DNA of 8,714 bases from JADFSZ01 sp022560555 [NCBI: PVC group bacterium]. GTDB taxonomy: Bacteria; GCA-001730085; JADFSZ01. Below, one piece after another: positions 1 through 5,817 of the stretch. Numbering within the stretch: the stretch's first letter is position 1; each line of letters opens with the position of its first letter. Made by a program: the position numbers and the translations under genes. The stretch covers positions 1 to 8,714 of the forward strand of contig JADFSZ010000068.1 of NCBI GenBank assembly GCA_022560555.1, in the 5' to 3' direction. Below the pieces are notes generated by a model, which saw nothing but the letters and a program-made list of their open reading frames with translations, was not told where the DNA came from and made no database searches.

Positions 1-389
1 GGATGATTCCCTTTAATAAACACATACAAAGGCGGGTGATTTATATAAGCGTTTCCCCCGGTATCTATAAATTCAATTTCGTTCTTTTTTAACTCATCTG
101 CCATAAATCTTCCAACATGATTGACAACAAGCAGGACAGGATGAGGAAGCTCCTCTTGCAATTTTATCAGCTGTCCAATCATGGCCCGATGAACATGCGC
201 CTTGATCTCTACACAGAACCGCACCTCTTCATTCTGCCATCTTATCTGCACGACTTTGTCTACATATGTCCTGTCATTAAGCCGCTTTTGGGTCGCCTCT
301 ATTTTGTAATCGACCGGTGTATTAAAATTGTCCTTGAATGCCTTTAGGGCAGCATCAAAGATCGTTTCTTCTTTGTGGTTCATTTCCAT
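1..389 (-). CDS. AbiEi-type antitoxin/regulator, N-terminal fragment (runs off left edge)
   Basis: An open reading frame of 129 codons reads from ATG at 389 (a second ATG is at 383) off the left edge without a stop. The end of the visible part, FIDTGGNAYINHPPLYVFIK (residues 107-126), closely resembles, from memory, the FIDTAGNAYI.PPLYIFIKGN signature of proteins annotated as type IV toxin-antitoxin AbiEi-family antitoxins. Residues 59-63 read CVEIK; with D44 upstream this has the look of a PD-(D/E)XK-like core, which is inference only. In the family, a winged-helix DNA-binding part usually follows, and here it would lie beyond the edge. AbiEi antitoxins repress their own operon by binding inverted repeats, and two elaborate inverted-repeat arrays sit directly upstream (403-455 and 520-572). 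No good Shine-Dalgarno is seen; AAAGA lies 6-10 nt upstream of 389. The toxin partner, if any, would be outside the window. It could instead be an orphan regulator of the same family. Confidence 0.72.
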   Translation of the reverse strand, partial: MEMNHKEETIFDAALKAFKDNFNTPVDYKIEATQKRLNDRTYVDKVVQIRWQNEEVRFCVEIKAHVHRAMIGQLIKLQEELPHPVLLVVNHVGRFMADELKKNEIEFIDTGGNAYINHPPLYVFIKGNH

Positions 390-402
390 TTAAAGGTCTT
401 TT

Positions 403-455
403 TGTTCAAATTATTATAGTGTTCAATAATAATGAACATACCATATATTTGAACT
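403..455. promoter_or_regulatory. operator array 1: nested palindrome with four half-sites
   Basis: Half-sites TGTTCA begin at 403 and 420, and their inverted copies TGAACA at 433 and TGAACT at 450. The start-to-start distances are 17, 13 and 17, so inner and outer pairs share one centre at 429. The inner pair forms a 19-bp dyad (420-438, 7-bp spacer). The outer arms extend symmetrically as GTTCAAAT and ATTTGAAC. The array covers the -10 box and start region of the AbiEi-like gene. The layout suggests two dimers, or a tetramer, of a wHTH-type regulator; the binding protein itself is inferred. Confidence 0.7.
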
Positions 456-464
456 AAATGTCAA
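435..464 (-). promoter_or_regulatory. predicted promoter of the AbiEi-like gene
   Basis: On the minus strand a consensus -35 box TTGACA (464..459) is followed after 18 bp by TATGTT (440..435; 4 of 6 matches to TATAAT). Transcription would start near 428, about 40 nt before the ATG at 389. One half-site of operator array 1 (450-455) lies in the spacer and another (433-438) covers the -10 box. A protein bound to the array would therefore block RNA polymerase, as expected for autorepression. Confidence 0.5.
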
Positions 465-519
465 CTCATTTTTACAATAATATTTGTAACATATTTATAA
501 ACAATATATTATGAATAGT

Positions 520-572
520 TGTTCACTATTTTTATATGTTCATTAATACTGAACAATATAAATAATTGAACA
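520..572. promoter_or_regulatory. operator array 2: second copy of the four-half-site nested palindrome
   Basis: Half-sites TGTTCA begin at 520 and 537, and inverted TGAACA at 550 and 567, all four exact. The distances 17, 13, 17 are identical to array 1 and the centre is at 546, 117 bp from the centre of array 1. The spacer bases differ from array 1, so only the half-sites and the geometry are shared rather than a simple duplicated block. No promoter with the geometry of array 1 is visible here. It may be an auxiliary operator that lets one regulator bridge or loop between the two arrays, or serve an unseen promoter. Confidence 0.68.
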
Positions 573-3240: not shown

Positions 3241-3317
3241 AATATCAAGTACTTACAAAAGTTTTGAGTTTCATATTTGCTATGGGATTCAGCAGATAAT
3301 TTTAAAAAAGATCACCC

Positions 3318-3366: not shown

Positions 3367-4347
3367 TTACGTCTGATTGACAAAATCATTCAGGGCGCGA
3401 AATTCACGGGCTAAGGAAGGATTTGTGTTCAATTCACCGGAAAATGTGCTGTAAATATAACTCACCGCAACATAGGTGTTAAACTTCATAATGTTCATAA
3501 TTTTGATTAAAGTGTAGCCGTGAAGACGCAGAAGGTATACAGCCGCTTTACGATACTCGTTGGGTTTCCCTTTCTTAGAAAAATACAACTCCTTATTCGT
3601 GATCCCATAATACTTTTTTAATTTATTCAAAATAACGCTTGCCTCGATAGATATCCGGTCCTTTTTGGAAGCCCACAGAGCCGCTTCCAATTTTACAGGA
3701 TCCTTGTATCTTCTTTTGAGCTGATCAATAAAATTTTCATCGCCTAAAAGAAAACCTTTTTTTCGATTTTTATAAAAATTTTCGACTGTCTCATTTATAG
3801 GTTTTCGTTCGTACGCTTCATAAGCCGAAGAAATATTATCCCCGTATTCCGGGCATAGCATAATCAACGCTTCATGAAGATAGATCCATTCCGGCTGTTT
3901 GTCGATGTTAAAGACATAATATCGGCTTGACGCAAGAGAATTTTTCCAACCCGTTTTTTTTGATGTGTTTTGAGATATTCGATGAATCCATTTAATGATA
4001 TCCAAAAAATAATTATCTATATCGATCAAAATGGATTGAAAACGCCCGCGGAACAGGGGGCCTGTTTTTCGGTATGCGCGATTATAATGTTGAGTATACA
4101 ATCCATTGATGTGACGCATGGCCAAAGATATGTTGGCCCGAGGGGTAACAATCATGAGATGATATTCTTTATCGCAAAGAGCGTAGGCGTAAATTTTAAT
4201 ACGATAAATTTTTGCGGCAGATCCGAGAAGACCTAAAAAGAACTTACGGTCGTCAGTTGTTCGAAACAAAGAACGATTCTGGGTGGATACTTGGTTGGAA
4301 ATGTGGTAACAGGCTCCGGCATATTCAATCCGCAATGCTCTCGCCAT
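3367..4347 (-). CDS. REP-associated-type Y1 transposase homologue with DnaA-like C-terminal HTH, catalytic residues lost
   Basis: The 326-residue product has an N-terminal Y1 transposase domain (about residues 1-135): MARALRIEYAGACYH at the start, the SLAMRHINGLYTQHYNR helix (residues 74-90), and GPLFRGRFQSILID. Active members use an HUH metal site (NHYH) and a Tyr in RYIHLNPV to nick single-stranded DNA. Here the HUH site reads KEYH (residues 60-63), so the first His is Glu61. The Tyr position reads KWIHRISQ, so Trp120 replaces Tyr and the NPV motif is gone. The C-terminal region (about 236-320), with KGKPNEYRKAAVYLLRLHGY and a following helix, resembles the DnaA domain IV-like HTH found on many of these proteins. 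The frame is intact, which suggests a retained DNA-binding role rather than decay. GGAGG lies 12 nt before the ATG. The gene follows purF by 48 nt in the same direction. No terminal inverted repeats or target duplication are seen. Confidence 0.85.
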   Translation of the reverse strand: MARALRIEYAGACYHISNQVSTQNRSLFRTTDDRKFFLGLLGSAAKIYRIKIYAYALCDKEYHLMIVTPRANISLAMRHINGLYTQHYNRAYRKTGPLFRGRFQSILIDIDNYFLDIIKWIHRISQNTSKKTGWKNSLASSRYYVFNIDKQPEWIYLHEALIMLCPEYGDNISSAYEAYERKPINETVENFYKNRKKGFLLGDENFIDQLKRRYKDPVKLEAALWASKKDRISIEASVILNKLKKYYGITNKELYFSKKGKPNEYRKAAVYLLRLHGYTLIKIMNIMKFNTYVAVSYIYSTFSGELNTNPSLAREFRALNDFVNQT

Positions 4348-4395: not shown

Positions 4396-5817
4396 TTAAC
4401 GGGGTATGTTTTCTAAGCAGTCTTTTCTCATATCTTTATTCACAGCAATGGGGTAATCTCCCGAAAAGCATGCCGTACAAAACTGATCATTGTTCTGAAA
4501 CATGGCATTCAGCATTCCCTTGAGGCTAAGATAGGCTAGGCTGTCTACACCCAGAAATTTTGCGATTTCATCTTCGGTTTTATCTGAGGCTATCAGCTCC
4601 TCGGGGCTGGGAAAATCAATCCCGTAATAACACGGATGCCGAATCGGCGGACAGCTAATGCGCATGTGAATTTCTTTGGCTCCTGCCTTCCAAAGTGTTT
4701 TGACACGTTTTTTACTTGTTGTTCCACGGACAATCGAATCATCAACAAGAATCACGCGTTTGCCTTTGATAACACTGGCAATGGGATTCAGTTTTACACG
4801 AACGGCAAAATCCCGAATGCTTTGTGCCGGATGAATAAATGTCCGTCCCACATAATGGTTCCGGATCACTCCTACTTCAAAGGGAATTCCGGACTCCTCC
4901 GAATAACCTAAAGCCGCGTAAATCCCGGAATCAGGCATCGGAACCACAATATCCGCATCCACCGGGGCCTCAACAGCCATACGCTTCCCCAGGCGTTTTC
5001 GAGTCAAGTAAACATTCTCACCAAAAATGTTACTGTCAGGACGGGAAAAATAAATATACTCAAAAACACAATACTTGTGTTTTATCTTGGGCGTGTATCG
5101 AAAGGATTTTAATCCTTGGTCCGTAATCTCTATGATTTCCCCGGGTTCAACATCTCGTATATAATCCGCTTCGATCAAATCAAGAGCGCATGTTTCTGAT
5201 GTAATAATATACTTTTCACCGATTTTTCCTATACAAAGAGGCCGCACGCCATGAGGATCACGAGCCGCAATGATCGATTTTTCCGTCATAAAAACCAGGG
5301 AAAAGGCTCCCCGTAACTTTTTTAAAGAGTCAGCAAGTTTTTCGACAATGCTTGGCTTTCTCGACCGAGCCATCAAATGAACAATAATTTCCGTATCCAT
5401 CGTTGTTTGAAAAATGGATCCTTTTGACTCGAGATCCTTTCGGAGTTTTTGAGCATTAACGATATTGCCGTTGTGAGCCACAGCCAATTTTCCGGACAAA
5501 AAATTCACCAAAAACGGTTGGGCATTTTCGATGTGAGACCGTCCCGTTGTCGAATACCGGACATGACCGCAGGCCGTATCCCCTTCCAATGTTTTGAGAA
5601 TGTTTTCTTTAAAAATATGTCCGACAAGCCCCATTCCTTTATGGCTAAATATTTGCTCTCCATCAGTCGAAATAATGCCGGCACTCTCTTGTCCGCGATG
5701 CTGCAAAGCGTAAAGACCAAGATACGTCAGACGCGCGGCGTCCTGACATCCTAAAATAGCAAATAAACCGCATTTTTCACGGAGATCATGATTCATGGAT
5801 ATTTTATTTTCCTTCAT
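4396..5817 (-). CDS. purF: amidophosphoribosyltransferase, [4Fe-4S] type
   Basis: PurF makes 5-phosphoribosylamine from PRPP and glutamine, the first committed step of purine synthesis. Numbering from the upstream TTG at 5820, C17 (EKCGLFAI) is the N-terminal nucleophile exposed after propeptide removal. The glutaminase part has ALQHRGQESAGI (38-49), GHVRYSTTG (85-93) and HNGNIVN (116-122). The PRPP loop is VILVDDSIVRGTT (356-368). C251, C397, C448 and C451 (CTAC) match the four cluster ligands of the Bacillus subtilis enzyme. About 470 residues is normal length. I chose ATG at 5817, which overlaps the pyrG stop as TGATG. TTG at 5820 is also open and sits 7 nt from a GAGG; a later ATG (residue 9) would also leave a short propeptide. 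The gene is translationally coupled to pyrG. Regulation beyond the shared pyrG leader is not visible. Confidence 0.97.
   Translation of the reverse strand: MKENKISMNHDLREKCGLFAILGCQDAARLTYLGLYALQHRGQESAGIISTDGEQIFSHKGMGLVGHIFKENILKTLEGDTACGHVRYSTTGRSHIENAQPFLVNFLSGKLAVAHNGNIVNAQKLRKDLESKGSIFQTTMDTEIIVHLMARSRKPSIVEKLADSLKKLRGAFSLVFMTEKSIIAARDPHGVRPLCIGKIGEKYIITSETCALDLIEADYIRDVEPGEIIEITDQGLKSFRYTPKIKHKYCVFEYIYFSRPDSNIFGENVYLTRKRLGKRMAVEAPVDADIVVPMPDSGIYAALGYSEESGIPFEVGVIRNHYVGRTFIHPAQSIRDFAVRVKLNPIASVIKGKRVILVDDSIVRGTTSKKRVKTLWKAGAKEIHMRISCPPIRHPCYYGIDFPSPEELIASDKTEDEIAKFLGVDSLAYLSLKGMLNAMFQNNDQFCTACFSGDYPIAVNKDMRKDCLENIPR

Follow-up and report, generated by a model that had tools for sequence, protein, structure and literature searches.

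The stretch of DNA analyzed here (the window, 8,714 nucleotides, contig JADFSZ010000068.1 of a PVC group bacterium) begins with part of a gene for an AbiEi_2-type antitoxin/repressor, located on the minus strand at 3..389 and cut by the contig end, so that only the first 129 residues, the N-terminal domain, are present. Upstream of this gene lie two 53-bp arrays of four hexameric half-sites each, to which no strand is assigned. Array 1, the proximal operator (403..455), reads TGTTCA-N11-TGTTCA-N7-TGAACA-N11-TGAACT, and array 2, the distal and proposed auxiliary operator (520..572), has the same layout with all four half-sites perfect; its centre lies 117 bp upstream of that of array 1, and 64 bp separate the two. 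The eight hexamers are TGTTCA at 403, 420, 520 and 537, TGAACA at 433, 550 and 567, and TGAACT at 450, the sole mismatched half-site, with its mismatch at position 455. In both arrays the start-to-start spacing is 17-13-17, which corresponds to two 23-bp inverted units (6+11+6) about a 7-bp centre, and the spacer letters of the two arrays are not alike. This description of half-sites, positions, orientation, spacing, single mismatch and differing spacers had been given in an initial annotation of the DNA and was confirmed in full. On the minus strand, a predicted -35 box (TTGACA, 459..464) lies just upstream of array 1 and a predicted -10 box (TATGTT, 435..440), 18 bp from the -35 box, falls within it, the last four bases of the -10 box being the first four of a half-site (TATGTTCA). 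The core promoter predicted for AbiEi is overlapped by array 1, which in this way shows the paired 23-bp inverted repeats over a promoter that mark AbiE operators. Array 2 has no embedded TTGAC or TATGTT.

In 1000 dinucleotide shuffles of the intergenic region (390-708), the best 17-13-17 array had 6 of 24 mismatches (median 11), compared with 0 and 1 observed. Seven exact hexamers are present in the same region, whereas the shuffles average 0.42 and reach 3 at most. Nine more lone TGTTCA/TGAACA hexamers occur in the window, none of them in an array arrangement. A scan of the host genome, which the initial annotation had proposed, found the four-half-site pattern (at most 3 mismatches) only at array 1 and array 2 in the organism's own assembly (G000, 1.66 Mb, 222 contigs), and a reversed control pattern was absent from the whole 1.66-Mb assembly, indicating that this is not a chance genomic pattern.

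The window fragment is homologous to the AbiEi_2 family. It matches the N-terminus of the protein of locus L005 from genome G042 (E 3.2e-24, 46% identity), which is a full AbiEi_2 protein (PF09952, 154.8 bits) followed by an overlapping gene for an AbiEii-type nucleotidyltransferase (PF08843), and it shares the FIDTxGN...FIKGN block with the AbiEi_2 alignment. A related-locus search with the window fragment as query gave no match. An AbiEi antitoxin and an AbiEii toxin are annotated in seven of the eight annotated plasmid relatives. An AlphaFold2 model of the homologue L013 (mean predicted local distance difference test score 82.5) has three domains, which were compared to known structures with VIA-align; the Z values are middling, and a shared fold does not show function. 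Residues 14-138 resemble 1y88 (Z 7.8) and residues 14-115 resemble 2vld (Z 7.5), both of which we take to be PD-(D/E)XK-type proteins, residues 143-227 resemble winged helix-turn-helix (HTH) domains of the CRP/MarR kind (Z up to 8.7), and residues 236-350 resemble the nucleotidyltransferase ANT(2'') (Z 7.8; range for the nucleotidyltransferase-like domain 7.5-7.8). Foldseek returned nothing at E <= 0.001 for this model. As modelled for this homologue, the domain order of AbiEi_2 would be a PD-(D/E)XK-like N-terminal domain, a central winged HTH and a C-terminal antitoxin domain with a nucleotidyltransferase fold. The E-x-K motif of the N-terminal domain is not conserved across the AbiEi_2 alignment, and therefore no nuclease activity is claimed.

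The array is found upstream of most homologues. A total of 29 AbiEi_2 loci were scanned from 300 bp before to 60 bp after the start codon (three starts are approximate) at a spacing of 16-18/13/16-18, in which the inner 13 was imposed by the scan and the outer distances, free at 16-18, vary over this range. A TGTTCA array with at most 3 of 24 mismatches is present at 21 of these loci, which is the pattern that the initial annotation had asked to be looked for, and the best of 100 mononucleotide shuffles per locus reached 6-9 mismatches. Four of the loci (L142, L143, L145 and L074) came from pattern searches; the count is 17 of 25 when they are removed and 16 of 24 when the window is removed as well. 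The array-bearing loci include metagenome-assembled genomes labelled Nitrospirae, Actinobacteria, Geobacter and Desulfobacteraceae, and plasmids of Hymenobacter, Spirosoma, Cupriavidus, Fibrella and Prevotella. In 12 of the 21 loci, the window included, TATGTT lies at the second half-site of the proximal array (TATGTTCA), and in five, again with the window, TTGAC lies 3-4 bp before its first half-site. This comparison supports the earlier view that array 1 sits on the predicted promoter of an AbiEi-type gene and looks like its operator.

Half-sites other than TGTTCA also occur in the same layout. In a family-first sample, which avoids the bias of pattern searches, PF09952 was found at 17 places in 15 of 386 genomes, a set in which species are sampled arbitrarily. 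At 15 of the 17 places a nested four-half-site array, with any half-site allowed, scored above all 40 shuffles; the two places lacking one are L202, where the gene is broken, and L206, which encodes the same protein as L006. Several half-site dialects can be distinguished: TGTTCA (L198, L199, L203 and L204), TGTACA (L200), TGTCC (L209 at 17-13-17 and L210 at 17-14-17), TTTCA (L201, L205, L207, L211 and L214 at 18-13-18, L213 at 18-14-18 and L208 weaker) and CTTG (L212, weaker). The half-site covaries with the protein. When the broken L188 and the window fragment are omitted, 20 of the 23 proteins with Gly at the '[LIV]G' position of the recognition helix have a TGTTCA array (at most 3 mismatches; 4 of the 20 were found by pattern), and none of the four with Lys or Asn there (L006, L187, L194 and L195) does. 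In addition, the HTHs of five TTTCA-dialect loci differ from those of the TGTTCA-array proteins. The arrays thus track both the protein family and its HTH sequence, and the dialects together with this covariation indicate a constant geometry in which the half-site changes along with the protein. This bears out the suggestion in the initial annotation that the geometry seems to be under selection, since it is kept in loci of several phyla while spacers, and even half-sites, change. At L213, a second TTTCA array (3257-3309, 53 bp, one base short) lies downstream of the AbiEi_2 gene instead of at the usual upstream place.

Scans of the 386 genomes that started from the pattern led back to the same genes. 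TGTTCA arrays with at most 2 mismatches were found in five genomes (reversed control 0 of 386), and in four of these, namely G000 (the window), G246, G411 and G334, the array lies before an AbiEi_2 gene. Exact TTTCA arrays number 10, in 8 of the 386 genomes (reversed control 0), and eight of the 10 are directly upstream of AbiEi_2-type genes, one of which, in G135, is frame-broken and below the Pfam cut-off. In G086, a TTTCA array lies upstream of an AbiEi_4-like protein (L242:809-1540; PF13338 at 22.2 of 25 bits, below the cut-off), which suggests that the layout reaches another AbiEi branch.

Taken together, it is highly probable that the arrays are self-repression operators in a type IV toxin-antitoxin operon of the abiE kind, with a repressor from the AbiEi_2 family. 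From the above we infer binding and its stoichiometry, repression, a toxin partner in the organism's own genome and a role for array 2. In this mechanism, the winged HTHs of AbiEi_2 molecules would bind the four hexamers of each 53-bp array. AbiEi_2 on array 1 would switch transcription off by covering the -10 box, the spacer of the promoter and the start region (negative autoregulation), and further AbiEi_2 molecules on array 2 may strengthen or tune the repression.

Several observations weigh against this reading. A good TGTTCA array is lacking at eight of the 29 AbiEi_2 loci: the best match falls short at L016 (5 mismatches), L197 of Arthrobacter (6), L188 (7) and L191 of Vibrio (8), and nothing similar is present at L006, L194, L195 and L187 (start approximate), with 10 mismatches each. 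The 129-residue window fragment on its own matches neither Pfam nor NCBIfam, the missing part of the gene (winged HTH and antitoxin domain) was not found in the organism's own assembly, and a search of that genome for relatives of the L005 toxin found none. In addition, two bacterial arrays lie elsewhere. In G152, a perfect TGTTCA array (L144:1501-1553) is flanked by genes for AbiEii and an AAA ATPase and is not upstream of AbiEi_2, of which a broken copy is present on the same contig, ~7 kb from the array. In G278, a TTTCA array is found at the 3' end of a gene that, judged by eye, resembles that of DNA polymerase III, and the stretch contains no AbiEi.

The initial annotation had also pointed out that array centres 117 bp apart, close to 11 helical turns, would allow looping. 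Distal arrays were sought within 450 bp at a threshold of 6 mismatches, and eight of the 21 loci have a second array, which lacks TATGTT and TTGAC, while the other 13 have one array. The eight centre distances are 117, 117, 106, 99.5, 100, 82.5, 137 and 76.5 bp, or 7.3 to 13.05 turns at 10.5 bp, with ~9.5 turns occurring twice. Because of this range, helical phasing is not conserved; the distance in the window stands as described, and a regular phasing is not supported. An additional step, in which one assembly bridges array 1 and array 2 over ~11 turns, would be compatible with the operator reading and with the loci at 117, 117, 106 and 137 bp, which are near whole turns, but it appears rather unlikely given the 13 single-array loci and the distances of 99.5, 100 and 76.5 bp, which are not.

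The same arrays are also found in viruses, mostly as single stand-alone copies (loci L022-L141, L178-L186 and L216-L238). IMG/VR was scanned for exact matches only, and its records are mostly fragments, some of which may be proviruses or plasmids. The TGTTCA array was found in at least 120 IMG/VR stretches, and in none when the outer spacing was shifted to 18-20. Of the 120 listed loci, 104 have the exact 17-13-17 spacing on the strand scanned, the rest being one-base variants or opposite-strand matches. The total may approach 300 by extrapolation, because a sub-pattern scan gave 15 matches of which only 6 were among the first 120 loci. The TTTCA array was found in 17 IMG/VR stretches (control 20-13-20, none) and the TGTCC array in 6 (control 19-13-19, none). 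A chance origin was dismissed on the basis that all shifted-spacing viral scans gave 0 and that reversed patterns gave 0 in the 386 genomes. The contig of L236 contains both a TGTCC array (5095-5145) and a perfect TGTTCA array (11227-11279), ~6 kb apart, and AbiEi_2 was not found in the stretch of it that was examined.

Viral arrays are rarely accompanied by the gene. Among 30 whole viral records picked from the TGTTCA matches, 29 contain exactly one TGTTCA array and one contains none at 53 bp. The AbiEi_2 profile matches one of the 30 (G117/L074), in which the gene directly follows the array. When a wider profile, built from 37 proteins, was run on the viral stretches (mostly parts of contigs), it matched only this same contig, and neither an AbiEi_2 search of the phage collection nor a comparison of viral contigs with the AbiEi_2 alignment gave a match. 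Viral arrays as operators of a phage-borne AbiEi_2 were therefore considered and rejected, as this fits L074/G117 only. Promoter motifs are also scarce: of the 132 orientations of 66 non-redundant viral arrays, one has TTGAC nearby and 15 have TA before the inner half-site. The presence of AbiEi_2 beside just one of at least 120 viral stretches, together with the two bacterial arrays away from AbiEi_2 (G152 and G278), could mean that another widespread factor, host or viral, generally uses the array as its site and that AbiEi_2 antitoxins merely share it, toxin-antitoxin control then not being its main role. This is very unlikely, since a single factor would not explain three viral AbiEi_2 dialects, each with its own spacing, and since the TGTTCA arrays in the 386 genomes are confined to genomes with an AbiEi_2 gene or gene fragment.

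By a crude call of open reading frames (ORFs), 21 of 111 viral arrays lie inside an ORF of at least 60 residues and the others lie between ORFs. A frame of at least 150 residues is open across the array at 13 of 120 TGTTCA, 8 of 17 TTTCA and 2 of 5 TGTCC loci (L236 was counted under TGTTCA), and in several of these the array is near the C-terminus or in Pro/Ala/Glu-rich stretches. Intergenic viral arrays are often located 2-6 bp past a stop codon or tRNA end. In the large phage contigs L031, L042, L059, L079, L080, L044 and L048, the array is surrounded by several hundred bp of seemingly non-coding DNA in which other palindromes are abundant, as if several binding sites had been collected together. 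At L040 and L124 the arrays are perfect or near-perfect 53-bp palindromes between convergent genes, as would be expected if the array acted as RNA, in a terminator or folded leader. Such a role is nevertheless most improbable, since a promoter is predicted under the bacterial arrays and since 66 non-redundant viral arrays, in which the hexamers were set by the search and the spacers were free, show no complementarity between their N11 spacers (mirror identity 0.14-0.53).

Phages related to Naca show how the array varies among close relatives. Record G129 was identified as Mycobacterium phage Naca (100% across the 20 kb that were compared), and the AbiEi_2 profile has no match in it. Its array is in the last codons of gene 32 and ends 8 bp before the gene end, and a serine integrase gene is nearby; the loci at the 3' end of gene 32 in these Benedictvirus-type phages are L169, L173, L174, L175 and L177. 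Ten related genomes, out of 56 matching records, were aligned. An array with identical letters is present in five of them (Naca, Chadwick, Theia, LittleCherry and George), and another segment takes its place in Benedict, Tiger, Zolita and UnionJack. Swirley has a third segment, a nested four-site palindrome of GTTCGG/GTTCCG at ~17-15-17 that scores above all 200 shuffles. The possibility that the Benedict, Tiger, Zolita and UnionJack alleles are another dialect was discarded as not significant, 44 to 159 of 200 shuffles being as good. The array of Naca, Chadwick, Theia, LittleCherry and George resembles that of the window in being a TGTTCA 17-13-17 array with one mismatch, and differs from it in standing alone in the 3' end of a gene.

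The single copy in 29 of 30 viral records, the arrays often flush with tRNA or gene 3' ends and the integrase gene near the Naca array would suit a phage attachment (attP)-like or recombination site, the half-sites of which would be contacted by a recombinase and its zinc ribbon. A serine-integrase attP is expected to change together with its integrase, and this is not what is seen: in the one pair compared, the neighbouring integrases of Naca and Benedict are identical at 479 of 481 positions, whereas only Naca has the TGTTCA array. Because near-identical integrases go with differing array alleles, the Naca array is not the attachment site of this integrase, which largely refutes an attP there. 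Bacterial arrays, for their part, sit on a predicted promoter in front of genes of one family, and an attP-like role is highly improbable for the arrays in general. The viral array instead seems to have been gained, lost or exchanged on its own among close relatives.

The viral copies match the host specificity and spacing in three dialects, with controls at 0, and come without a regulator or promoter of their own, as decoys would. Titration by a decoy is the simplest reading of the viral arrays, because their dialects are those of the hosts and neither promoter nor gene accompanies them. It is therefore plausible, and put forward here only tentatively, that the stand-alone arrays of various kinds of phage mimic the AbiEi_2 operator, in the dialect and spacing of the host, and titrate the repressor. 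While phage DNA multiplies, such decoys would draw the antitoxin-repressor off the host abiE promoter, and the abortive-infection system would be disarmed or mistimed. Titration may benefit either the phage, through increased antitoxin production and a mistimed toxin, or the host, through sensing of the phage; the gain of arrays in phages favours the former. Alternatively, the viral copies may be bound by a different protein. If the decoys are real, phages would counter a toxin-antitoxin system by means of a DNA site of 53 bp, an anti-defence that does not use a protein, and the recurrence of such an unusual operator in phage genomes that lack its gene would be accounted for.

Elsewhere in the window, a gene resembling those of repetitive extragenic palindrome (REP)-associated tyrosine transposases is located on the minus strand at 3367-4347 (Y1_Tnp, PF01797, 25.5 bits; NCBIfam match below the cut-off).

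No operator study of the AbiEi_2 family was found in the literature searched, and among the literature matches listed, judged by title or the start of the abstract, none describes the window array or its viral copies. With the operators described here, this widespread family gains a readable operator code, consisting of a fixed geometry, a variable half-site and a covarying recognition helix, which makes specificity, stoichiometry and cross-talk directly testable.

The initial annotation had matched this exact layout to no described system, and this holds in part. Paired 23-bp inverted repeats have been published for AbiE. In Streptococcus agalactiae, the antitoxin of abiE binds two 23-bp inverted repeats over the core promoter, resulting in negative autoregulation (PMC3985639, PMC7319586), and the window shares such paired 23-bp inverted repeats over a promoter. 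The S. agalactiae repeats, as given there (TGTTGCTTTTATACCACAAATAT-N3-...), have no direct hexamer within the unit and a 3-bp centre, whereas each 23-bp unit of the window contains two direct hexamers (TGTTCA-N11-TGTTCA) and the centre is 7 bp; these are the features that remain distinct. The S. agalactiae AbiEi also has an N-terminal winged HTH, while that of the AbiEi_2 homologues is modelled as central, behind the PD-(D/E)XK-like domain. In Mycobacterium tuberculosis, an AbiEi-type antitoxin gene is preceded, at the Rv2827c-Rv2826c promoter, by paired 23-bp inverted repeats in two sets (PMC7319586). There, the gap is 13 bp within pairs and 4 bp between pairs, compared with 7 bp and 64 bp in the window, and half-site and domain order differ as well. 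On the best reading, the window operator is a variant of the known AbiE operator.
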